From contig JBDSQB010000008.1 of the NCBI GenBank assembly GCA_039930045.1, positions 1 through 64,000 of the forward strand: DNA of 64,000 nt, written 5' to 3'. The first letter of the stretch is position 1, and every line of letters begins with the position of its first letter. Made by a program: the position numbers and the translations under genes. Under the pieces are notes generated by a model that ran no database searches, had not been told where the DNA came from, and saw only the letters and a list, made by a program, of their open reading frames with translations. Source of the DNA: Chthoniobacterales bacterium (lineage in GTDB: Bacteria; Verrucomicrobiota; Verrucomicrobiia; Chthoniobacterales; DASVRZ01). Positions 1 through 29,125 of this stretch are shown here, piece by piece.

Positions 1-1782
1 CTCAACGAGTTTGCGATGCTGTGGCTGCATGTTCCCAGAAAGTAGGGAGTATGGTGGATTGCCAACCACGACAGTGAATTGCTGTTTGCGCTTCACCTCA
101 TTCACTGCTTCCGCTTCATTCGCAAGTGCGTCCCCCCAATCGGCAATGGATAGCTGAATGCTGTCACTTGCGGGTTCAAGGGCATTGGTGAGGTAGACTC
201 TTACCCGCTCCTCTGTACTGAAATGGTAACCGGTCTCGGCGAGCTTGAGGCCGATCTTCATGTGGGAGATGGCGTAGGGGGCCATCATCAGCTCGAAGGC
301 GTGGAGGCGGGGGAGGAGGTGTTGCGGCACATACTCGTTCCACGCGGTGCGCTCTTGGGCATCGGTGAGGCGCTGCTGTTTCCACTTCGCCGCAAGGGTG
401 CGGTGGATGACGTCGATGACTTCGACGAGGAAGGTGGCGGTGCCGGTGGCGGGGTCGAGGATTTGGACGAAGGGTTCGTCCGGGGAGATGGTGCGCTTTT
501 CGCCCGGCTCGTCGGTGAGCGGCGGGAGTTTCAGACCGGGGTGCTTTTTCAGCATCTCGCCCCAGGTGGTGGTGTCGGCGAGTCCGTCGGCGAGTCCGAA
601 CTCGGTTTGCAGGAGTTCGTGGACGCTGCGGACGATGTAGGAGACGACGGGCTGCGGGGTGTAGAAGACGCCACGCTGGATTTTGAGTTTCTTATTATAG
701 GCGCTGAGGAAGTGCTCGTAGAAGTGGATGACGGGGTCTTCGCCGCGGGTCTTGTTGTTGAAATCGGCCAGAATAACCTCCATATGGGTATCCGGACTGG
801 TGAGGAGATCGGTGACATCGCTGACGCCGAGTTCGTCGAAGTCGATTTTGCCTTTTCGGCTTTTCAAGCCCAGGAAGATGCCGAGCATTTCCTTCAGAAA
901 TGGGCTGGTGAAGTAATGCGTCAGGTCTTCTTTGGCAAAAGCCGTTCCTTCACCCACCACGGTGCGACGCGCTGCTAGTGAGAAGAGTCCATAGGCGACC
1001 GTCTGGGCAAACATGTCGGCAAAACCTTCGTCGTCGAGATCGTGAATAAGGCCCGCCTGAAAAGCGATTTGTAGTTTGCGGATTTCGCCAAAGCCGTCCT
1101 CCACGCGCAGAATATCACGGATGCGAGTCCGTAGGTTTCTCGCCAGCTCGGCCAGCGCGATCGCGAGGTCGGAGGATGTCCGAATAACGTGGCGATGACG
1201 CAGAAGGAAAGCGGAACTCCACTCGGCGCGCCAGGATTCGGGGTCAGCTTCGTATTTGGCATGCCAGCGTAGTTTATTGCTGAGGGTCTGCGCGACATAA
1301 TCCATGTGCAGCGGCGTATCGTCCGCGTCCCAGCCGAGCACCCGCAACTCGGTGAGTGCGGAAGTCTCATTTTCCACAAAATGGGCAAAGGTGAGTTCGC
1401 GATTAGCGTCCTCTCCCGTGGCAGAGATGAAGAGAAGGTCCTTCGGCTGCCAAGCGGGTCGTTCGGCCGCATTAGCAGAGGCGCGCTTTTTGAAGACGAG
1501 ATGCCGCAAGATGCGGCGCAAAACAACGATGGGCAGACGTTTTCTGCCAAACTCGACAAAGAAAATGCCCCACGGCTGCGCCTGATGGAGTGGCCGAAGC
1601 TGATGGATGGCTTTGACTTTGACTTCTTCCTCGGCTTTCAACCCCATCTCGGCGGGTTCGTATTCGAAGGTTAGGTCCTCGAATTCAAAGTCTTCTGTCG
1701 GCCAGTCGAGATCGTCCCGGAGATAGTCGATGAGTTCCGGGAAACGGCGGATTTGTTGGAGCTTGTCTGAGGAGATGGACAT
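1..1782 (-). CDS. Type ISP-like N6-adenine DNA methyltransferase (3' end outside window)
   Basis: One uninterrupted reading frame of 594 codons runs leftward to base 1 with no stop, so the C-terminal part is missing. Residues 372-385 carry a GVFYTPQPVVSYIV segment typical of type ISP/IIG enzymes; residues 443-451 read DPATGTATF (AdoMet motif I) and residues 575-578 NPPY (catalytic motif IV), so N6-adenine methylation of DNA is the predicted reaction. The first ~370 residues (for example GIFFVEFGRKRLPIVV near 72-87) match nothing I can name. No helicase motifs are seen; the helicase is the separate gene just upstream, whose stop lies 9 bases before this ATG, so the two are probably co-transcribed. 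The missing C-terminus probably holds the target-recognition domain. Likely role: modification or sensing half of a restriction/defence system. Methyltransferase call strong; subtype and defence role are inference. Confidence 0.88.
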   Translation of the reverse strand, partial: MSISSDKLQQIRRFPELIDYLRDDLDWPTEDFEFEDLTFEYEPAEMGLKAEEEVKVKAIHQLRPLHQAQPWGIFFVEFGRKRLPIVVLRRILRHLVFKKRASANAAERPAWQPKDLLFISATGEDANRELTFAHFVENETSALTELRVLGWDADDTPLHMDYVAQTLSNKLRWHAKYEADPESWRAEWSSAFLLRHRHVIRTSSDLAIALAELARNLRTRIRDILRVEDGFGEIRKLQIAFQAGLIHDLDDEGFADMFAQTVAYGLFSLAARRTVVGEGTAFAKEDLTHYFTSPFLKEMLGIFLGLKSRKGKIDFDELGVSDVTDLLTSPDTHMEVILADFNNKTRGEDPVIHFYEHFLSAYNKKLKIQRGVFYTPQPVVSYIVRSVHELLQTEFGLADGLADTTTWGEMLKKHPGLKLPPLTDEPGEKRTISPDEPFVQILDPATGTATFLVEVIDVIHRTLAAKWKQQRLTDAQERTAWNEYVPQHLLPRLHAFELMMAPYAISHMKIGLKLAETGYHFSTEERVRVYLTNALEPASDSIQLSIADWGDALANEAEAVNEVKRKQQFTVVVGNPPYSLLSGNMQPQHRKLVE

Positions 1783-1791
1783 AGAGATCAG

Positions 1792-4700
1792 TTAATTCAA
1801 TTCCATCCAACACTTAAGCACCGGCGTGATTCCCGGTGGAGCTTGAAGGCTTCGAAGATGGCTCTTCACCAGCTCCTTCTCCACTTTCTTGCGCAGGGTA
1901 GCGAGAGATGTGCGGTCAATGGAGCAGTGGCGCGGAGTTTTTGGCAGACAGCGCACAAAGTCTGCGATGGCCGCCGGTTCGGAGAGCATCTGGTCCCCCG
2001 CCAGATCGCTGCAAACCCAAACAGTAAAACCAGCGGCGTCCGACCAGCGAAGCTCACCACTTTCTCCCGGCACCAAGTCCACATCTGGCCGCGGAATGCG
2101 AAAGCAGAAAAAAACGGCTCGCGTGCCGGTTGTGGGATGCTCTTTTCCTGAAAAAAGTTTGAGAGGTAGCTTGTCGAGAGTGGCGGCAAGCTCCGGGTAA
2201 TCTTTGACGAGTTGATTGTATTCAAGTCGAAGTTGTTCTGTTTCGGATTGGGTGCCGTCGAATTGCTTGTTGAGCTCTTTAGTCACCTCGAAATCGTCGT
2301 CACTTTTCAGCAGCTTGCCGTGTTCGATGCCGAGGGTTTTGGAAATGGTTAGCACCTTTCGGCTCACTCGCTCGTAGATGCCGAGCAGGTCGTTCAGTTC
2401 ATCGGGTGGGAGGAAGTTCCAATAGATGATGCGCCCGCGTTCGCCAGCCAATTCGGGATGAGCGGCATTGATGGCGTCTTCCGTCGCAGGATTCATGCGA
2501 CGATCCACGCGGCCGATCCGCTGCATGAGCCGAACCGGATTCCAGTGTAGATCGTAGTTAATCAACCGGGAAGCGTCCTGAAGGTTGAGGCCTTCTGCGA
2601 GAACGTCCGTGGCGATGAGGATTTGAATCTCCGACCCATCCATTTTACCCGCTGGCACATGGTTATAGAAGGGGGAGAAGCGGTGAATCACCGAACTGCG
2701 CTGGCGTTGCGAGCTACTGCCGTCGATGCGCTCAAGTTGGGTAATACCAGCGTTTTTCAGTTCATCTTCCAGATAACGGGCAGTATCAGCAAATTCAGAG
2801 AAGACCAATACCTTCTGACCAACTGCAGCTTTGTCCGTTTTAAGGAGCTTGATTAGAGCTTTGAGCTTGTCATCACGATCCGGCTTCACGGCGCGGACCA
2901 GTTCGAGGAACTCGGCTAGCTGGTCGAGATCGTCATAAGTATCGTCGATCATTTCATCGACTTTGTAGGTCTTGGGATCGAGCTTTTCGACAGCTTCGAT
3001 CTCTTCCTCACTGACAAAGTCCTCCGGCAACTCGTCTTCCGTCTCTCCGGGAAACAAATCGGGTTGGTGCGCGTGCACGTAATCGATGAGTTGATCGTTT
3101 CGGATTTTCCACTTCGCCAAGCGGTTCTTATCGTGAGCGGAAACCGTATGCGCTTCGATCCACGCCACCAATTTCTTCAACAATCGCCAGCAGGACATTT
3201 CAAAAGCCTTAGCAGAGCTTTCAAAGCGTTTGAGAAATTGAACTCGAATCAGCGCAACCACCTGAGCCTGGCGTCCCGTTTCCAAATTTTCCTCCGTCTC
3301 GGTGTGGAGGTAGCCGAGCGGATAATAGATGGCCAGCGCGAAGAGGGGCTTGGTTTTGCTGAAGGCTTTCTCGACGCTTTCCAGCAGGCGCCCGTAGGTG
3401 ATCTTTAATTTATAAGGTGCAACCCGCGGCGTCTCTCGATGGGGAAACATGATTTCTCCACCTTCTAGCAACCGTTGGCTTTCTTTGACGTAAGAGCGGC
3501 TGCGCTGAACGACAAGGTGCTCAAAGAGGGTCTCCTTCTGGAGTGCGGTCTCCACTGCGGCAATCTCTAACTGCGCTGAGGAATCGACGTTCTGTTGGTT
3601 AAAGAGCTTTTTCTCGAGTGCGACGAAATGGCCGCGGGTGCTGTGAATGCCGAGATTATGGCCATCCTGGGAGAAGTAATTATCGTTGGTCCCGGTCACA
3701 AGACCAAGGATGTGACGGAAATCGTGGACTGAGTTGTTAATCGGAGTGGCCGTAAGGAAATAAAGCTGCTTGGGCCGGCTGCCTGGCTGATGGAGCGCCT
3801 CCTGCAACATGCGGTACCGGGACGGGGCACGATCCCCTTCGCCGGCAATACCTGGATTTCGGAAGTGATGCGCCTCGTCAATGATGATGACATCGGCATC
3901 GCGCAGAATGCGGCGAAGATCACGCGGCCAATTTCCTTTCCGCTGGAGATCGGTGTGGTTACGAACGAGCAAACTAACGAATCCGCTGTTGAGATCGGGT
4001 AAAAGCTGCTCTATGACGGGCTCCCAAACATCTTGCCGAGCTGCCTTCGGCGCGAATAAGACCACGTTCTTTTTTTCTTTGCTAACGAACCGCTCGATCA
4101 GCATCAAGCCCACGTAAGTTTTGCCCAAGCCAACGCCATCGCAAAGAAAAGCACCTCCATAACGGCGAGCTATCTGCACGAGATTTTTATATGCATCCTG
4201 TTGGTATTTAGCGAGTCGTTGAAAGACGACCGACTCTTCGATGTCCCATTCGTCCGGCGTCAATTCGTGACCACTAAAAAATTCATGAAGCGATTTAAAC
4301 CACACTTCAAAGGGAGTATGCGGCGTTGTATGCCGTTCGATTGTGCGGAGAATGTCTGGAGTAATGTCCTCTGAAAGATCCCAATGACGTTCATACCACT
4401 CTTGGAGTAATCCAACTTCTGGCCCGCGTATCTGGACGTTGAGTTCAATATTATCCCACAAGCCCGGAAACGTGAAGTTAGAGGAACCCACTAATCCATA
4501 AGAACCAATTACCGCCGAGCGTCCATGCGTGAGGTAAGCCTTGGCGTGAAATTTTTCCTTCCGATAGACGCGGCATAGAATCTTGCCGGATTTAATAGCG
4601 GCGACGATGGCGGGCACACCTTCCAGAAAGTCATTTTGGATTTTTTCTTTTTCGATACTTTCATCCAACCGATGGCCAATTAGGGAGAGACCTTTCTCAA

Positions 4701-4932
4701 ACGCTCGTTTTGTTCGGTAGGACACCTCATCGCCCAAAAGAATTCGAAATTGCTCGACCAACTGCCACTTATCTTTAAGAGAAAGAAGCGATCCGATCTC
4801 AAAATAGCCCGTGGCAATGTCGATGGCCCTGGCAATTTCGCACCATTCGCTTAGGTAAGTGCCCACTTTCCACTCCGTGTCGCTGTTATCGACAATGAAC
4901 AGCTCGCTGGCAGATTTATTTGTTGCGCTCAT
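1792..4932 (-). CDS. SNF2-type helicase with N-terminal phospholipase D-like domain
   Basis: A 1046-residue protein. Residues ~20-190 form a PLD-like module, with FHAKAYL at 128-134 followed by GSSNF at 149-153, the half-motif used by PLD-type nucleases. A superfamily 2 helicase follows: Walker A GVGLGKT (266-272), Walker B DEAH (352-355), TATPINN (394-400), and QRIGRVDRR in the C-terminal lobe near residue 800. Expected activity is ATP-driven translocation or remodelling on double-stranded DNA, possibly coupled to nucleolytic attack. It lies immediately upstream of the methyltransferase and probably forms its operon. Related PLD, SNF2 and N6-methylase parts occur in DISARM and other defence systems, but the DISARM DrmB (DUF1998) gene is not seen in this window, and PLD and helicase are fused here. 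By eye the 3.9-5 kb stretch is AT-richer than the genes further right, which fits horizontal acquisition. Confidence 0.88.
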   Translation of the reverse strand: MSATNKSASELFIVDNSDTEWKVGTYLSEWCEIARAIDIATGYFEIGSLLSLKDKWQLVEQFRILLGDEVSYRTKRAFEKGLSLIGHRLDESIEKEKIQNDFLEGVPAIVAAIKSGKILCRVYRKEKFHAKAYLTHGRSAVIGSYGLVGSSNFTFPGLWDNIELNVQIRGPEVGLLQEWYERHWDLSEDITPDILRTIERHTTPHTPFEVWFKSLHEFFSGHELTPDEWDIEESVVFQRLAKYQQDAYKNLVQIARRYGGAFLCDGVGLGKTYVGLMLIERFVSKEKKNVVLFAPKAARQDVWEPVIEQLLPDLNSGFVSLLVRNHTDLQRKGNWPRDLRRILRDADVIIIDEAHHFRNPGIAGEGDRAPSRYRMLQEALHQPGSRPKQLYFLTATPINNSVHDFRHILGLVTGTNDNYFSQDGHNLGIHSTRGHFVALEKKLFNQQNVDSSAQLEIAAVETALQKETLFEHLVVQRSRSYVKESQRLLEGGEIMFPHRETPRVAPYKLKITYGRLLESVEKAFSKTKPLFALAIYYPLGYLHTETEENLETGRQAQVVALIRVQFLKRFESSAKAFEMSCWRLLKKLVAWIEAHTVSAHDKNRLAKWKIRNDQLIDYVHAHQPDLFPGETEDELPEDFVSEEEIEAVEKLDPKTYKVDEMIDDTYDDLDQLAEFLELVRAVKPDRDDKLKALIKLLKTDKAAVGQKVLVFSEFADTARYLEDELKNAGITQLERIDGSSSQRQRSSVIHRFSPFYNHVPAGKMDGSEIQILIATDVLAEGLNLQDASRLINYDLHWNPVRLMQRIGRVDRRMNPATEDAINAAHPELAGERGRIIYWNFLPPDELNDLLGIYERVSRKVLTISKTLGIEHGKLLKSDDDFEVTKELNKQFDGTQSETEQLRLEYNQLVKDYPELAATLDKLPLKLFSGKEHPTTGTRAVFFCFRIPRPDVDLVPGESGELRWSDAAGFTVWVCSDLAGDQMLSEPAAIADFVRCLPKTPRHCSIDRTSLATLRKKVEKELVKSHLRSLQAPPGITPVLKCWMELN

Positions 4933-9646: not shown

Positions 9647-10600
9647 ATGTGCATTCAGCTTTTCCCCCGCCAGTGGCCAGTCGCCGCAGGGCTTTTCCTA
9701 TGTGTGAGCGGCAGTCTTTGCGCCCAGGAATTGGTGCGTCCTCAGTTTGAGACGGCCCAGCAGACGACCAATCTCGCCCCGGTCCAAGTTTCCAAGAAAC
9801 AGGAAACTGTCTCCGCCATGGACCAGGCGGTGCTCTCGAACAACACGGGCGATCTCGGCGAGCAATGGATCTATCAGTCGAAGGAAACGCCCAAGTCCTT
9901 CACCGCCGTCGCCGAGGTTTCAGCCTGGCACACGTCGAACGTCGCTTTGACCTCGCGCAATGCTCTCGATGACAACTACTTCGTCGGCCAGCTCGCCGTC
10001 ACCTGGCAGCATCCGCTGGCCAAGTCGGTCGTCTTCGACATCAGCCTGCAGCAGGCGTTCTTTCGCTATAATGAGTATTCCCAACTCAATTTTGATAGTC
10101 TGAACGCCGGTTTCGGCCTCACCGGCCAGACGACGTTCCTCGGCGGCACCTCGTGGTATGCCCGCTACAATTTCAACCGGCTGACCGCGGAAAACTACGG
10201 CAGCGAACTTTACACGAGCCATTCGCTGCTCGTCGGCGGCCAGAAAGTCTTCCAGCTTTCGCGGGCCGACTCGCTCTTTCTCGGGGGGTCGGCGCAGGTG
10301 AATTTCGCTGATCCGGCGGAATTGGAGCGCCGCGAGTATGCGCTTTATGGCGGCTACGCGCTGGCCGTCACGCGCTCCATTTCCTGCGACGCGATTTATC
10401 GGGCGGCGATCTACGATTACAATCAGACCGACCGCACCGATCTGAACCAGACGCTCTCGATCGGCGTGCACTGGCATCCGCTCGAAGTTCTCACCATCTC
10501 CGGCTCGGTCTCCGGCGCGCTCAATCGCTCGGACAAGGCCGTCTTCGATTACGATCTCCTCACCGCTGGCGCGACTCTCTCGGTCAATTACCAGTTTTAA
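9647..10600 (+). CDS. Outer-membrane beta-barrel protein
   Basis: A 317-residue protein with a signal peptide (hydrophobic core AAGLFLCVSGSLCAQ, predicted cleavage after CAQ). The mature part alternates aromatic/hydrophobic and polar residues in strand-length blocks (SWYARYNFNRLT, YALYGGYALAV) and ends in ...LSVNYQF, with the terminal Phe that is the BAM recognition signal of outer-membrane barrels. No porin, TonB or transport motif is seen, so the cargo is unknown. The stop lies 4 bases before the FecR-domain gene, so the two are almost certainly co-transcribed. Together with the FecR protein it could be an export or anchoring partner, which is inference from adjacency. Confidence 0.8.
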   Translation: MCIQLFPRQWPVAAGLFLCVSGSLCAQELVRPQFETAQQTTNLAPVQVSKKQETVSAMDQAVLSNNTGDLGEQWIYQSKETPKSFTAVAEVSAWHTSNVALTSRNALDDNYFVGQLAVTWQHPLAKSVVFDISLQQAFFRYNEYSQLNFDSLNAGFGLTGQTTFLGGTSWYARYNFNRLTAENYGSELYTSHSLLVGGQKVFQLSRADSLFLGGSAQVNFADPAELERREYALYGGYALAVTRSISCDAIYRAAIYDYNQTDRTDLNQTLSIGVHWHPLEVLTISGSVSGALNRSDKAVFDYDLLTAGATLSVNYQF

Positions 10601-10604
10601 GCTC

Positions 10605-13073
10605 ATGAAAAACCCCTCAGTTCTCACGGTTCTTCTCCTCGGTATTTCCTTGCCCGCCTTCAGCGCACCGCTGAGCGAGGCACGGATCAATCGCGTGCAG
10701 CACGATGTCAAAATCACCGAGGCCAGCGGCTCGGCCAAGGCCGCGAGTGAGGGCGAAATGGTCCACGGCACCCAGGGCATTCGCACCGGTGCGCAATCGG
10801 CGGCGGAGTTGCTTTTCCCCGATAACACTCTGGCCCGGCTCGGCTCGGACACGATGTTTACCTTCGAGACGGGCACGAGAAAGATGAATCTCGAGAACGG
10901 CACGCTGCTTTTCCAGATTCCCAAAGGCGTGGGCGGCGCGAGCATTCGCACGGGAGCGATCACGGCGGCGATCACCGGCACCACGGGTTTTATCGAGCGC
11001 GGGCCGACCCATTACAAACTGGTGCTCCTCGAGGGAACGATGCGCGTTTTCCTGAACGACCGGATGCGCGAGTCCATGCTCGTGAGCGGCGGTCAGATGC
11101 TGATCGGCCCAATCAAAAGCGGCTCGATCAAGGACTGGCAGACCGTCCCCATCGACACGGCGAAGCTGATGAACACCTCGAAGCTTCTCGACAAAAAGAA
11201 GTTTGCCCCGCTCTCTGGGGCGGCCAGCACGAAGATCGAGGAAGTCATCGAGCACCAGAGGACGCAGTTGCAAAAAGGCGGGCTGGCCGAGACGAACCTC
11301 GTGATCGACGGCTTCGGAACAACGCTGCTCGCGGTGCAAAACGCCGCCGAGGCGAAAGAGAAAAAGGGCAAGCTGGAGCAGTTTCAGCACGAGTCACATT
11401 CCAATCCAACTCCGACCCCCCGCCCGGCCGCGCTTCCGAATCCCGGTCCCTCCCCCACTCCGCGTCCGGCTGCGGTTGATGGCGATGAATTGGCCGATTA
11501 CCCCGGCGTGAACGACGGGGCGTTTGCGACTTCCACCTATCGCGGCGCGACGACGCACAACAAGCCGTTCACCCTCCAAATCTCCAAGGTGGACTCCCGC
11601 ACCATTTTCGATCTGCGCGGCAGCACGCCTATGATCAGCGGCAGTTCCTCGGGGAAAAAGGATGACAACAACGACAATGAAAATGATGGCGAACACAACC
11701 ATTCGTCCACCAGCGGCACGATCTACGGCGGCTGGGCGGCGGACGGTCCGGCCTCCTCATTTCTCTTTAAATCGACCAGCAACTTCGATGTCCAGACGTC
11801 GTTCGACGGGAAGTTTGGCTCGAACTACGACTTTGATTTCCCGCGTTCCGGCGTGGCGGTTTTCTCCTTTAAGAAACTGGAAATCAATGGCACTCCCCAC
11901 GTTTACGGTCTGAGCACGGCGCGCAATATCGCCCTCGTCAGCGCCGATGGAATCAAACTCGGCAAGGACTCCCTCTCGCTCAACGATTTCGCCAGCCTGA
12001 CTCTGGCCGCGACCAAGGGCGACATTCGTCTGGACAAGGATGGCGATGTTTCCAGCACCGCGTCGGCGTTCCATTTCCTGCACCTCTACAACCGCTCCGG
12101 CAAAGTGAAACTCGAGGGAACGATCAGCCTGCCGCAGGCGAATCTCTTCATCGATGCGGCGCGCGACATCGATATCACGGGTGACAGTCATTTGGTTTTC
12201 AATCGCGGCGCTTTCAATGCCTGGGGCGACATCACGCTCGACGCTCCGGTGGAGGCCGACTATTTCCAGCTCGACGCGGGCGGCGATCTTTCGCTGAACG
12301 GCGTCCTGCAAACGCACGAGCTTTTTGCCCTGGCCGACGGTCAGCTCAATGTCCAGCAGCCGATCTCCGCGACTCCAAAAGCGTCGCAGACGACCGGCGG
12401 CGTGGTCAGTCTGGAAGCGGCGGACACGGTGACGGTTTCGTCTACGGTCAACGCCACGAGCGCGCCTGATCCGACCGTCACCGGGGCTGGTTCGCGGATC
12501 AAGCTGGTCGGGAAACGTCTCACCGGCACCGCCATTTCCATCAGCAGCACCGGCCAGCTTAATGCCTTGCTCGACACGCTGGCGACGGGCCCCGGCGGAA
12601 AAGTGACCCTCGAATCTCGTGGCGGCGCGATCGTGGTCAACGGCACCATCACCGCACCCAAAGGCACGGTCGATATTCAAAACTCCGGGACGAATGGCGT
12701 CATCACTTTCAATGGCGCAACCATCGCGGCGGACGTCGTAAAAGTCGGCGCGATGGGCAACAACGGCACGCTGAACATCGGTGGCGGCAGCATTGCGGCG
12801 GATACGTTGCTCAAGCTCTACGCCGGCGGCAGCAACGGCACGGTCCACTTTCAGGACAATGTGACTCTCAATGGCAACAGCACGAAAATCATCGCTGCGA
12901 ACACCGTCCAGATCGACAACTCGAAAGTGGTCACGGTGAATGGACTCACACCCGCCCAAGTTTACACGAACAACGCCCACTACACCGGCAGCGGCGGTGA
13001 TAGCACCACGACTGGAACCTTCGGCGGTCAGGGCGCCACGACTCAGGCGCACTCGGCCCGGCCTTCCTTCTAA
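10605..13073 (+). CDS. FecR-domain protein with adhesin-like beta-helical C-terminus
   Basis: An 822-residue secreted protein. A signal peptide (MKNPSVLTVLLLGISLPAFS) precedes a FecR domain at ~30-155 (TGAQSAAELLFPDNTLARLG, then GTLLFQIPKGVGGASIRTG and ITGTTGF). A coiled region around 210-265 and a Pro/Thr-rich linker at ~268-290 lead to a very acidic patch (KKDDNNDNENDGEHNH). From ~430 to 800 the sequence repeats Gly/Asn/Asp-rich strands such as ITLDAPVEADYFQLDAGGDLSLNG and GGKVTLESRGGAIVVNG, as in filamentous-haemagglutinin-type beta-helices. There is no membrane segment for the usual sigma-regulator topology, so this is more likely a surface or periplasmic structural protein than an anti-sigma factor. 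It is 4 bases after the barrel gene and 3 bases before the kinase gene. Confidence 0.82.
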   Translation: MKNPSVLTVLLLGISLPAFSAPLSEARINRVQHDVKITEASGSAKAASEGEMVHGTQGIRTGAQSAAELLFPDNTLARLGSDTMFTFETGTRKMNLENGTLLFQIPKGVGGASIRTGAITAAITGTTGFIERGPTHYKLVLLEGTMRVFLNDRMRESMLVSGGQMLIGPIKSGSIKDWQTVPIDTAKLMNTSKLLDKKKFAPLSGAASTKIEEVIEHQRTQLQKGGLAETNLVIDGFGTTLLAVQNAAEAKEKKGKLEQFQHESHSNPTPTPRPAALPNPGPSPTPRPAAVDGDELADYPGVNDGAFATSTYRGATTHNKPFTLQISKVDSRTIFDLRGSTPMISGSSSGKKDDNNDNENDGEHNHSSTSGTIYGGWAADGPASSFLFKSTSNFDVQTSFDGKFGSNYDFDFPRSGVAVFSFKKLEINGTPHVYGLSTARNIALVSADGIKLGKDSLSLNDFASLTLAATKGDIRLDKDGDVSSTASAFHFLHLYNRSGKVKLEGTISLPQANLFIDAARDIDITGDSHLVFNRGAFNAWGDITLDAPVEADYFQLDAGGDLSLNGVLQTHELFALADGQLNVQQPISATPKASQTTGGVVSLEAADTVTVSSTVNATSAPDPTVTGAGSRIKLVGKRLTGTAISISSTGQLNALLDTLATGPGGKVTLESRGGAIVVNGTITAPKGTVDIQNSGTNGVITFNGATIAADVVKVGAMGNNGTLNIGGGSIAADTLLKLYAGGSNGTVHFQDNVTLNGNSTKIIAANTVQIDNSKVVTVNGLTPAQVYTNNAHYTGSGGDSTTTGTFGGQGATTQAHSARPSF

Positions 13074-13076
13074 CCT

Positions 13077-14252
13077 ATGCAACGACTCGCCAACACAGGC
13101 ATCATTTCATTCCCTGGTACGGCAACGAACGAGCCGCAGCACGTGAGCTTGGGCGAGTTGCGGGCTAATCGCCTGCTCTCGCGCGTGCCCGGCTCCGTCC
13201 TCGCCGAAATCGCCTCGCGCATCCCGCGGGTCACGGTCCCGGCGGAGAACATTATTTTCCAGGAGGACGATCACGGCGACTGCGCCTACCTCATTCTTCA
13301 GGGAACGGTCCGCATCTCCAAACGCGGGCGCGGCGGCCAGCAGGAGACGCTGACCTATCTGCAACCGGGCGATTATTTCGGCGAAATGGCGTTGCTCGAT
13401 TCCAAGGTGCGTTCCGCCCAGGCCTGCGCCGCCGATGGCGCGGTGGTCGGGCTCGTGGACCATTCGACTTGGGACCTGCTCCTGCAACTCGCGCCGCAGC
13501 AGGTAATGAGTAATTTCGCCTGGTCGCTGAACGAGCGGCTGCGCAACAACAATCAAAAATACATCGAGGAAATGGTGCGCACCGAGCGGCTTAGCCTTCT
13601 CGGGCAAACGCTTGGCTCGGTCGTCCACGATCTGCGCAGCCCGATCACCTGCATCCTGGGTGCGATGGAAATGTTGCAAATGCGCAACACCGATCCCGAG
13701 GCGGGCTGCTTCTTTGAAATGATCGGCCAAGCCGTCGAGCGAATGCAGGCGATGACCGAGGAAATCATGGATTTTTCCCGCGGCGTGACGCGTTTGAATG
13801 TGACTCGACTGCCCCTCAGCCGGCTGGTGACGGAGATTGCCAAAGAGGAGGCGCATCTCTTTTCGTCGCCGAATGTGAAACTCGTGACCGAGCTGGAGCA
13901 GGACGGCTCGATCGAGATCGACCGGGCGCGCATCCAGCGGGTGATTGTGAATTTATTGAAGAACGCCCGCGAGGCGATCAAGGCCAGCGGCACGGTCACG
14001 ATCACGGCGACGCGGAACGACGGTTACGCAGTGATCTCGGTGCGCGACACTGGTTGCGGGATCGAGCAGCAAAGATTGGCGTCGATCTTCGAGCCCTTTG
14101 TCACTCATGGAAAAGCGAACGGAACCGGGCTCGGCCTGGCGATTGCGAAGTCGGTGGTCGAGGCGCACAACGGCCGCATGATCGTCACCAGTGAAGTGGG
14201 AGTCGGATCTGTTTTTGAGGTTCAACTGCCGCTCTGCCTCGGGAGCAAGTAA
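13077..14252 (+). CDS. Histidine kinase with N-terminal cyclic-nucleotide-binding domain
   Basis: A 391-residue soluble protein. Residues ~30-145 are a cNMP-binding domain with the phosphate-binding cassette FGEMALLDSKVRSA (101-114), including the Arg112-Ser-Ala expected for cAMP binding. A helix (150-175) leads to the HisKA segment with the phospho-acceptor His184 in VVHDLRSPI, then a GHKL ATPase (N box VNLLKNAREAI, G boxes DTGCGI and NGTGLGLAI). No membrane segment and no receiver domain are present, and no response regulator is adjacent. It follows the FecR gene by 3 bases and converges on a CHASE2 adenylate cyclase. The simplest reading is a cAMP-gated kinase; its partner regulator is unknown. 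Confidence 0.88.
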   Translation: MQRLANTGIISFPGTATNEPQHVSLGELRANRLLSRVPGSVLAEIASRIPRVTVPAENIIFQEDDHGDCAYLILQGTVRISKRGRGGQQETLTYLQPGDYFGEMALLDSKVRSAQACAADGAVVGLVDHSTWDLLLQLAPQQVMSNFAWSLNERLRNNNQKYIEEMVRTERLSLLGQTLGSVVHDLRSPITCILGAMEMLQMRNTDPEAGCFFEMIGQAVERMQAMTEEIMDFSRGVTRLNVTRLPLSRLVTEIAKEEAHLFSSPNVKLVTELEQDGSIEIDRARIQRVIVNLLKNAREAIKASGTVTITATRNDGYAVISVRDTGCGIEQQRLASIFEPFVTHGKANGTGLGLAIAKSVVEAHNGRMIVTSEVGVGSVFEVQLPLCLGSK

Positions 14253-14257
14253 GTCCC

Positions 14258-14364
14258 CCGGGAGCGCACGCGTCTCGCGTGTTCCAGCGGGCGTCCCGCC
14301 CGGTGGCTTTACCATCTTCCCGGCGAGACGCCGGCAAGTGCACGCGAGACGCGTGCGCTCCCGG
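14258..14364. repeat. 107-bp element with perfect 24-bp terminal inverted repeats
   Basis: The arm 14258-14281 (beginning CCGGGAGCGCACGCGTCTCG) is the exact reverse complement of 14341-14364. The 59-base centre holds smaller G/C palindromes. The element fills the gap between the convergent kinase and cyclase genes, where it could act as a bidirectional transcription block although it has no T tract. A second, one-armed copy lies at 29071-29125, so this is a dispersed family rather than a local hairpin. Confidence 0.85.
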
Positions 14365-14369
14365 AAGAG

Positions 14370-16244
14370 TCACCTCGTCGCGACTGAGTGGACTTCGATC
14401 GCTTTCTCGAAGCCGCGGATCGTTTCCGTCGAGACCAATGGCAATGAAAATTCGCCCTCGACCAGCTTCGCCACGTCGCCGCTGATGAGGATTTCCTCCT
14501 GCCGCTCGCGGGTCAGCGACTGGAGCCGGGCCGCCAGATTGGCGGCGTCGCCGATGACGGTGAGATCCATTTTTCTCTCGGAACCGATGTTTCCAACGAC
14601 GCATTCGCCGTGGGCAATGCCGATGCCGAGCGCGAGTTGGGGTCGTCCCTGGGCGAGCCATTCGGCGTTCAAAGTTTTGAGCGACGATTGGATCGCCAAG
14701 GCCGCGCGAACGGCGTTCACCGCGTCCTCTTTCACGCCGTCGCTCCGCAGATTTCCCCAGACGGCCATCATGCCATCGCCCATGATTTTATCGAGCGTGC
14801 CGCCGTGATGGAAAACGTCCTCGATCACGCGGGCGTAATATTCGTTGAGCTGGGCCACGAGTTCCTGAGCGTTCAGCATATTGACCATCGCCGTGAAATT
14901 CCGCAGGTCGGCAAAGAGCACGGTGACTTCTTTGCGAACGCCGACGAGCGACGTGAGGTAACTCTGCGGGCTATCCAGAATTTCCTTGGCGACATGACCC
15001 GAGACGTAGCGTTCCAGCGTGGCCCGAACCCGCTGCCGCTCGAAACGTTCGCGGGAAAGGTCGAACAAAATGCCGCCGAAGACGGTGAGCGACAGCACGA
15101 CGATGGGCGCGGCCAGCGGGACGAGGAACCCGGCGTTATTAAACAGCCACTGCGCGACCATCCAGTAAACGATCACGAGCAGGAGAAACGCGCCGAAGCG
15201 AATACCCGACGTGCCGGACAGGCCGTTCAGCAACGCCCCGATGGCGGCCGCGAGGGCGATAATTCCCGCCGCGAGCCACGGGCCCGGCAGATGGATAAAT
15301 TCCCCTGCCCGCGCCGCCGCCAGCGCGTGGAGATGGACCTCTGGACCCGACATCAGACCGCGCGTGCCGAAGATGGAGGTGAACGGAGTTGGATGCTCAT
15401 CATGGCTCCAATGGCCCTCGGGGCCGACGACGACGATCTTGTTTTTGAAGAAGGCGCCGTCCTGAAAATTGCTGTGCCAGAAGCTCGGCAGGAAGACCTG
15501 ATAGACGGAAAAATGCGGATACGTCCCCGGCTCTCCGCTGAAACGAAACGGCGTGCTGCCTGTGTCGGGAAGCTTCAGTTTGGGGTCGGTCAGGTGCAGA
15601 ATGCTGGCCGCGAGCGAGTTAAAGACGATCGTGCCGTCGGTGCGTTTGCGACCCACGAAATCCTCGGGAGCGGCGCGAAAAATGGCCGAGCGCACGATGC
15701 CGTCGTCGTCGGGAACGAAGTTCGCAAAGCCGATCTGCGCGTCCTGTTTTCCCTGCGTGAGGAGGGTGTCGCTTGGCACGCTGAAACTCGGCACCGGCGT
15801 GTCCACCCCGGTGAAAGTGCCGCCGATAATGGCCTGATCGGAGTAACGCTGGAGTATGCTGGAAAAGTCCGCGTCGCCGCGGCCCGGTCCCGGAAACAAA
15901 AGATCGAAAGCGACGACTCGCGCGCCGGCTTTCATGAGTTTCTCCAGCAGCGCGGCATGAACCGAGCGCGGCCAGGGCCAGCCTTCCTGCATGAGTGCAA
16001 ACTCGGGAATGGTGTGGATCTCGTCGTCCAGCAGTCCGTCGAGCCGAATCGAGGCCTGGTCGATGGTGAGGAGAACGATGTCGGCGGCGACGGGTGTTTT
16101 GCGGCCAAAGACGGCGCGCAAGTCCTTGGTGTAATTCTCCAGGCGCAGCAGCGGGAGGAAGATGAAATTCATCAAGATCCCGGCCAGTCCGACCACGGCG
16201 GAGATGGCGAGAAGGAAGACGAATCGTTTCGGGGGACGCTGCAT
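14370..16244 (-). CDS. CHASE2-domain class III adenylate/guanylate cyclase
   Basis: A 624-residue membrane protein. One N-terminal helix (9-30) precedes a periplasmic CHASE2 sensor (~40-310, with EGWPWPRSVHAALLEKL and GARVVAFDLLF), three membrane helices (~323-395) and a catalytic domain (~435-624). The metal-binding Asp446 (LFADLRNF) and Asp490 (MGDGMMAVWG), substrate Lys487, and the DLTVIGDAANLAARL transition-state segment are all present, so it should be active; the Lys suggests ATP over GTP. I start at MQRPPKR: the frame extends upstream only because it reads through the tRNA gene. It converges on the cNMP-binding kinase across the inverted-repeat element. FecR with CHASE2-cyclase is a known genomic association, so the 9.6-16.2 kb genes may form one signalling unit. 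Confidence 0.9.
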   Translation of the reverse strand: MQRPPKRFVFLLAISAVVGLAGILMNFIFLPLLRLENYTKDLRAVFGRKTPVAADIVLLTIDQASIRLDGLLDDEIHTIPEFALMQEGWPWPRSVHAALLEKLMKAGARVVAFDLLFPGPGRGDADFSSILQRYSDQAIIGGTFTGVDTPVPSFSVPSDTLLTQGKQDAQIGFANFVPDDDGIVRSAIFRAAPEDFVGRKRTDGTIVFNSLAASILHLTDPKLKLPDTGSTPFRFSGEPGTYPHFSVYQVFLPSFWHSNFQDGAFFKNKIVVVGPEGHWSHDEHPTPFTSIFGTRGLMSGPEVHLHALAAARAGEFIHLPGPWLAAGIIALAAAIGALLNGLSGTSGIRFGAFLLLVIVYWMVAQWLFNNAGFLVPLAAPIVVLSLTVFGGILFDLSRERFERQRVRATLERYVSGHVAKEILDSPQSYLTSLVGVRKEVTVLFADLRNFTAMVNMLNAQELVAQLNEYYARVIEDVFHHGGTLDKIMGDGMMAVWGNLRSDGVKEDAVNAVRAALAIQSSLKTLNAEWLAQGRPQLALGIGIAHGECVVGNIGSERKMDLTVIGDAANLAARLQSLTRERQEEILISGDVAKLVEGEFSLPLVSTETIRGFEKAIEVHSVATR

Positions 16245-16315: not shown

Positions 16316-16390
16316 TGGAGCCGACGACGGGATTCGAACCTGCGACCTGCTGTTTACGAAACAGCTGCTCTACCACTGAGCTACGTCGGC
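16316..16390 (-). tRNA. tRNA-Thr (anticodon CGT)
   Basis: On the minus strand a complete cloverleaf can be folded: acceptor stem GCCGACG/CGTCGGC, D arm AGCTCAGTGGTAGAGC, anticodon stem GCTGT/ACAGC around the loop TTCGTAA (anticodon CGT, reading ACG Thr codons), T arm GGTTCGAATCCC. The CCA end is encoded. It lies 71 bases upstream of the cyclase start on the same strand. Confidence 0.96.
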
Positions 16391-16464: not shown

Positions 16465-17064
16465 CTAACTCGACTCAGGCTTGTCTTCGACTTCGGCCAG
16501 TTTTTCCTCGATCCGTCGGTCCGGGATGAACCAAAGAGCGGCGACTCCAATGTAGAGTGCGATGGAGATCCAGACGTTGAAGAAGGCGAAAATGAGGCCC
16601 GCGAAATAGAGAACCGGGGAGAGTTTTCCCTTCCAGTCGTGGCCCACGGCGTCGGCTAACAGCGAGTGGCGGCCCTGCTCGCGGATGATGAGCCGTTGCA
16701 GGATGTTGTAGGCGACGGCGGCCATGAGGAGGACGAAGCCATAGACGGAGACGGGGGTGGGAGCGAGGTGGTTTTCGCCCATCCAACCGGTGGAAAAGGG
16801 GAAAAGCGAGAGCCAGAAAAGGAGGTGGAGGTTGGCCCAAAGGATGGGCCCGGTGACTTTCTCGGTGGATTGGAAGAGGTGGTGGTGGTTGTTCCAGTAG
16901 ATGCCGACGTAGATGAAGCTGAGGAGGTAGCTCAGGAAGACGGGCAGAAGCGGCTCCAACTCGGGCAGCGTGGTGACGTGGGGAATTTTCAGTTCCAGCA
17001 CCATGATGGTGATGATGATGGCGAGAACGCCGTCGCTGAAGGCTTCGAGCCGGTGGCTGGTCAT
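16465..17064 (-). CDS. TMEM175-family (DUF1211) potassium channel-like membrane protein
   Basis: A 199-residue protein from the ATG of MTSHRLEAFSDGV. The RLEAFSDGV motif in the first helix is the signature of bacterial TMEM175 channels, in which this helix lines the pore; six hydrophobic segments follow (for example LAIIITIMVLEL, PVFLSYLLSFIYVGIYW, LYFAGLIFAFFNVWI), as expected for the single-repeat bacterial form that acts as a tetramer. The conserved NHHH in the first half is also typical. An ATG 12 codons upstream is in frame but less likely, since family members start shortly before RLEAF. It stands alone between the tRNA and the aspartate aminotransferase terminator. Confidence 0.87.
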   Translation of the reverse strand: MTSHRLEAFSDGVLAIIITIMVLELKIPHVTTLPELEPLLPVFLSYLLSFIYVGIYWNNHHHLFQSTEKVTGPILWANLHLLFWLSLFPFSTGWMGENHLAPTPVSVYGFVLLMAAVAYNILQRLIIREQGRHSLLADAVGHDWKGKLSPVLYFAGLIFAFFNVWISIALYIGVAALWFIPDRRIEEKLAEVEDKPESS

Positions 17065-29070: not shown

Positions 29071-29125
29071 CCCCCGGGAGCGCACGCGTCTCGCGTGTCT
29101 CCAGCGGACGTCTCGTCCGATGGCT
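29071..29125. repeat. One-armed copy of the 14258-14364 repeat element
   Basis: Bases 29074-29097 are identical to the 24-base left arm at 14258-14281, and the next ~28 bases match with a few substitutions. The right arm is absent. It occupies the gap between the sigma-54 regulator stop and the aminotransferase start. Confidence 0.8.

Follow-up and report, generated by a model that had tools for sequence, protein, structure and literature searches.

A possible cAMP route from an envelope sensor to a cyclic nucleotide-binding histidine kinase in Chthoniobacterales

The best-known cAMP signalling of bacteria ends in transcription factors of the Crp type. The locus described here encodes a soluble histidine kinase with a cNMP-binding (CNB) domain, and on the opposite strand lies the gene of a CHASE2 adenylate cyclase. 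Does this kinase read the cAMP that its neighbour would make, and do the two, together with a putative outer-membrane barrel and a FecR-domain protein, form one signalling route? An earlier note had proposed such a loop, which would run from an envelope signal via cyclase and cAMP to the kinase and an unknown regulator. The stretch analysed, here called the window, comprises 64,000 nt of a Chthoniobacterales bacterium (assembly GCA_039930045.1, contig JBDSQB010000008.1, positions 1-64,000, forward strand). Its relevant features are the following.

9647..10600, + strand: barrel, putative outer-membrane beta-barrel protein, 317 aa, signal-like N-terminus, last residue Phe
10605..13073, + strand: FecR-domain protein, predicted to be secreted, 822 aa, signal peptide, FecR domain, low-complexity linker and repeats
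10779-11039, + strand: FecR domain of this protein (Pfam, E 2e-11)
~11922-12974, + strand: repetitive beta-rich C-terminal part of the FecR protein
13077..14252, + strand: cNMP-binding histidine kinase, soluble, 391 aa (Pfam, motifs and model)
13230-13481, + strand: CNB domain of the kinase
13377-13424, + strand: phosphate-binding cassette of the kinase
13602-13781, + strand: HisKA of the kinase, His184 at 13626
13920-14234, + strand: HATPase_c of the kinase
14260..14362, no strand: REPIN-like dispersed palindrome between the stops of kinase and cyclase
14370..16244, - strand: CHASE2 class III adenylate cyclase, 624 aa, ATG start at 16244
16175-15237, - strand: CHASE2 domain of the cyclase; transmembrane segments also present
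14933-14394, - strand: catalytic domain of the cyclase
16316..16390, - strand: tRNA-Thr(CGT), just upstream of the cyclase, block boundary

According to the ORF positions, the gap between barrel and FecR gene is 4 bp and that between FecR gene and kinase 3 bp, and the cyclase gene converges on this trio, as had been described before. Barrel, FecR protein and kinase very probably constitute one operon. The four genes together do not, because the cyclase is convergent here; in relatives it is usually found divergently upstream. Among the block-bearing loci compared, the convergent layout is peculiar to the genome of the window. The block is flanked by a putative L,D-transpeptidase, so named from its sequence, by the tRNA-Thr and by a gene for a TMEM175-like potassium channel family protein (16465-17064, - strand). 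At 1-4932 (- strand), cut by the start of the window, lies a candidate defence island with an Eco57I/type IIG-like methylase and an HKD/PLD + Snf2 helicase (PADLOC, DrmD-like).

Between kinase and cyclase a short element had been noted. It measures 103 bp and contains a pair of 22-bp repeats, copies of GGGAGCGCACGCGTCTCGCGTG in opposite orientation; its folding far exceeds that of shuffled sequences (z -11). It is, however, a REPIN-like dispersed repeat and not a block-specific part. With ≤2 mismatches allowed, 87 half-sites were counted in the genome versus 0 for a reversed-pattern control, and they are often paired in inverted orientation, roughly 80-110 bp apart. A further one is seen in the window at 29076-29097. 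The palindrome may act as a terminator for both converging transcripts, and local rearrangement may have been facilitated by it.

The kinase unites cNMP_binding, HisKA and HATPase_c (Pfam) in one protein that has neither a transmembrane segment nor a DNA-binding domain. This is the composition of the CNB-HisK family, which was named in a census of CNB domains in 2007 without genomic context or function (PMC2246266). Its phosphate-binding cassette, FGEMALLDSKVRSAQA, is intact, with E103 and R112, the latter presumably the cAMP-contacting arginine that had already been attributed to it. The kinase boxes are intact as well: H184, N292, the G1 box DTGCGI and the G2 box GTGLGL. An AlphaFold model with a mean pLDDT of 86 displays the CNB domain, a long helix, the DHp and the CA (ATPase) domain; a fold search with this model yielded only histidine-kinase cores among the matches listed.

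The cyclase is built as expected for a CHASE2 class III enzyme: an N-terminal transmembrane segment is followed by CHASE2, transmembrane segments and the catalytic domain, and Pfam recognises CHASE2 and Guanylate_cyc. When aligned with solved adenylate cyclases, its six catalytic positions read D/K/D/T/N/R, the residues being carried by the motifs LFAD, LDKIMGD, LTVIGD and AANLAAR. The two metal Asp, the adenine-specifying Lys plus Thr/Asp and the transition-state Asn and Arg are all in place, which bears out the earlier claim of a complete catalytic set. In five of the eight block cyclases (L045, L174, L176, L180, L185) Lys takes the place of the transition-state Arg, and these enzymes may have a lower activity; the window cyclase keeps the Arg. 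The genome of the window encodes four class III cyclases and seven CNB proteins. Therefore, cAMP need not be private to the block.

The barrel has no match in Pfam and a weak one to the C-terminus of EpsL. Nearly all of its homologs end in Phe, and this residue together with the signal-like N-terminus supports an outer-membrane barrel, as far as sequence features can tell. Homologous barrels adjoin FecR and CHASE2 genes in relatives. The AlphaFold model of the FecR protein is confident solely for the repeating beta strands, about residues 440-790, and of low confidence in the N-terminal part. With this model Foldseek ranked PupR/FecR-type anti-sigma regulators first, but with E > 0.001; beta-helix adhesins were not significant, and the beta-helix-like C-terminus had no significant match in the PDB. 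Like the FecR of FecI-FecR-FecA signalling, the protein has a presumably periplasmic FecR domain, yet it lacks the anti-sigma N-terminus, shows a signal peptide instead, and no sigma gene adjoins it in the block. This topology had been taken for a departure from the rule. Beside CHASE2 genes of this order, however, signal peptide, FecR domain and variable tail are standard, the tails ranging from short and proline-rich to very long, so that a FecR protein without anti-sigma topology is the rule here. Some long FecR proteins (L059:7029-9635, L060:7661-10225, L174, L176, L185) share a C-terminal motif, ~YTGSGGN..TSGTFGG.GATT.P. Two paralogs of the window FecR protein are found elsewhere in the same genome, one of them beside a barrel of its own.

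Is the block conserved? Of 213 genomes of the order, 54 contain a full-length ortholog of the kinase. The genes around these orthologs were called by a simple script, which makes starts and small genes approximate, and their domains were labelled with HMMs grown from the proteins of window and relatives. Linkage of the four genes in relatives, which the earlier note had suggested to look for, was indeed found: kinase, barrel, FecR protein and CHASE2 cyclase occur together at eight loci in seven genomes of the families f1, f5 and f8 (the window, G036, G141, G149 with two loci, G124, G083 and G077). At six of the seven other block loci the cyclase lies divergently upstream of barrel, FecR, in part REC, and kinase. 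At the G077 locus it is the kinase that points away from cyclase, barrel and FecR gene, and the cyclase consists of two separate ORFs. G145, with a FecR fragment, a REC gene and the kinase and with no cyclase at this locus, looks like a case of erosion. Barrel, FecR and CHASE2 cyclase are also common in the order as a three-gene unit that lacks the kinase, and the block of G036 and G141 adjoins the same suf genes as are found in the block-less G027, G138 and G007. A wider search detected the kinase in other Verrucomicrobiota, in Cloacimonadota and in Spirochaetes; at the loci clearly outside Verrucomicrobiota no block was seen.

A tree of 25 cyclase sequences unites the eight kinase-linked CHASE2 cyclases in one clade (support 93/90), apart from 17 unlinked ones, and a single change of state accounts for the linkage. 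On the kinase tree, nine changes of cyclase linkage are counted. The window kinase belongs to a clade of eight members (support 100/99; window, G077, G149a, G044, G124, G018, G120, G142), of which four have the CHASE2 block, one an FHA-cyclase-like gene, one a TPR-cyclase and one no cyclase, while one is cut by a contig end. The kinase of the other G149 locus, G149b, branches off first among the REC-linked kinases, and its locus carries the full block. This history is most simply explained by an association that arose once in an ancestor and was then partly lost several times.

CHASE2 cyclases are not the only cyclases beside this kinase. FHA-cyclases are near it in three genomes of one genus (G003, G030, G096), an FHA-cyclase-like gene, without a Pfam cyclase match, lies 10 bp from it in G018, a gene with the two domains in the opposite order, cyclase-FHA, is near it at L130, and a TPR-cyclase is its neighbour in G142. 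In 12 of 39 genomes the kinase has a cyclase at a distance of ≤5 kb, versus 0.75 expected from cyclase density, a calculation that ignores kinship. In about 40 of the 54 kinase-bearing genomes, some of them with the kinase on short contigs, no cyclase is among the nearest genes. Different cyclase types thus recur beside one kinase family, and of the indirect evidence this speaks most strongly for a CNB domain that reads a cyclic nucleotide. In G018 we also observed a CHASE2-histidine kinase fusion (L072:9143-11134) that adjoins barrel and FecR gene and replaces the cyclase; there the sensory front end would be joined to another output.

In many relatives a REC gene directly precedes the kinase gene, a few bases apart; in G124 it is located on the far side of the cyclase. 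The linked protein has 230-265 aa, a C-terminal receiver domain (Pfam) and no recognised DNA-binding domain. Its N-terminal half, as read from the alignment, resembles a dimerisation domain without recognisable His (SELNNLLQIISG). The regulator that had been left unknown thus has a candidate in many relatives; in the window genome itself, comparison of closest matches detected neither a linked receiver nor an ortholog of the REC protein. The best match there, C9:99897-100601 beside pilT-like genes, was rejected as an ortholog because relatives carry both genes separately and because matches to the closer REC query in G000, G077 and G083 reach 34-36% versus 48-60% for true orthologs.

How could these parts work together? 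Barrel and FecR protein, the one in the outer membrane, the other in the periplasm or at the surface, would sense an envelope or surface condition. By analogy with known FecR/barrel/CHASE2 systems they would control the periplasmic CHASE2 domain of the inner-membrane cyclase, which, judged by its catalytic residues, should make cAMP. The nucleotide would bind to the CNB domain of the soluble kinase and alter its autophosphorylation, as intact cassette and conserved linkage suggest. The phosphate would then be passed to a receiver, in many relatives presumably to the stand-alone REC protein encoded right before the kinase, in the window genome to some unlinked regulator. As a net effect, cAMP would stand as an intermediate between CHASE2 sensor and histidine kinase. 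We consider it rather probable that the block is one signalling route of this kind, from envelope sensor via cAMP and CNB kinase to receiver. The more specific proposal, a histidine kinase gated by cAMP from a dedicated, linked, envelope-sensing CHASE2 cyclase, where Proteobacteria fuse CHASE2 to the kinase, has in our judgement an even chance. As to the loop of the earlier note, the recurrence of the block and the repeated placement of the kinase beside cyclases speak for it; the Lys for Arg in several sister-block cyclases does not. Further points against such a route are the many kinase orthologs that have no cyclase nearby, the lack of a linked receiver in the window genome and the location of cyclase and kinase on opposite strands there.

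The linkage could be real and the CNB domain nevertheless structural, redundant or devoted to another ligand; the kinase would then be controlled otherwise, and cAMP would act through other CNB proteins, of which the window genome, with seven in all, has a choice. Among 61 kinases, 14 carry a degenerate cassette, most of them being REC-linked and without a neighbouring cyclase, and their kinase boxes are for the most part retained. The genomes of such kinases can hold many cyclases, e.g., 18 and 23, and the kinase family can therefore work without canonical cAMP contacts. On the other hand, the cassette is intact in the window kinase and in all 14 cyclase-linked kinases; its Arg is kept in all of these and absent from 14 of the 47 others, none of the kinases with a non-Arg at this position being cyclase-linked. 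This correlation has a nominal p of 0.015 but loses significance when independent pairs of the tree are compared, and is therefore suggestive only. Given the intact cassettes and the recurrence of the kinase beside different cyclase types, we regard a CNB domain that does not read cAMP as unlikely. Several orthologs (L051:9449-10588, L205, L206, L208, L209, L193, L195) have a decayed cassette, H-box or G2 box; from their sequences they are possible pseudokinases, and a REC gene still precedes most of them.

Alternatively, the genes might be neighbours without a shared pathway, the barrel-FecR-CHASE2 cyclase unit acting on global cAMP and the kinase being an inherited passenger. The three-gene unit is common without the kinase, the kinase often occurs without the unit, and one ancestral association would account for the single cyclase clade. 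Yet the kinase gene follows the FecR gene after 3 bp, other cyclase types adjoin the same kinase family, and the block has been retained in three families despite rearrangement, be the cyclase convergent or divergent or the kinase divergent. A mere passenger thus appears quite improbable to us. The kinase might also be a negative-feedback arm, in which cAMP lowers its output and kinase and receiver tune the expression of barrel and FecR protein rather than carry the main signal. It is co-encoded with the sensor proteins and not with the cyclase, and the linked receiver lacks a recognised DNA-binding domain; activation by cAMP, however, is equally compatible with these facts, and we give the feedback arm very little credence.

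The route from envelope sensor to CNB kinase has relatives in the literature. A cluster of CHASE2-adenylate cyclase, FecR-domain outer-membrane protein, phosphodiesterase and TPR protein, proposed to form one pathway, was described for Campylobacterota (PMC9239204), and FecR proteins and CHASE2 cyclases are known neighbours, as had been stated. The window block shares with it the linkage of a putatively secreted FecR-domain protein to a CHASE2 cyclase; it contains, instead of phosphodiesterase and TPR protein, which are absent from block and immediate flanks, the barrel and the cNMP-binding histidine kinase. In Sinorhizobium meliloti the barrel receptor NsrA feeds the CHASE2 cyclases CyaD1, CyaD2 and CyaK, and Clr reads the cAMP (PMC7529298, PMC13001267). 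Outer-membrane beta-barrel, CHASE2 adenylate cyclases and a CNB protein as reader are common to both, NsrA being likened by description alone. There, however, the reader is a Crp-type transcription factor, whereas the linked CNB protein of the window is a histidine kinase, and FecR protein and barrel are here separate proteins of one operon. The BiofilmReg operon of Burkholderia and relatives combines a FecR-domain protein, a CHASE2 receptor and a two-component output (PMC5192318). In that operon CHASE2 is fused to the histidine kinase; in the window it resides on the cyclase, and cAMP would connect the two. FecR/CHASE2 cyclase clusters, CHASE2-FecR-kinase operons and CNB-kinases are thus each already known. 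In the literature searched, which included few subscription journals, we found no study on the function of a CNB-histidine kinase and no description of the FecR/barrel/CHASE2-cyclase combination with such a kinase.

The conservation of the block favours a connection between two signalling systems that have mostly been treated in separate studies. The linkage supplies candidates for input, messenger and reader and, in many relatives, for the acceptor; therefore, control of a two-component system by cAMP becomes directly testable. If true, FecR protein, barrel and CHASE2 would be a portable sensory front end that can be connected to a cyclase plus Crp, to a fused kinase or to a cyclase plus CNB-kinase.
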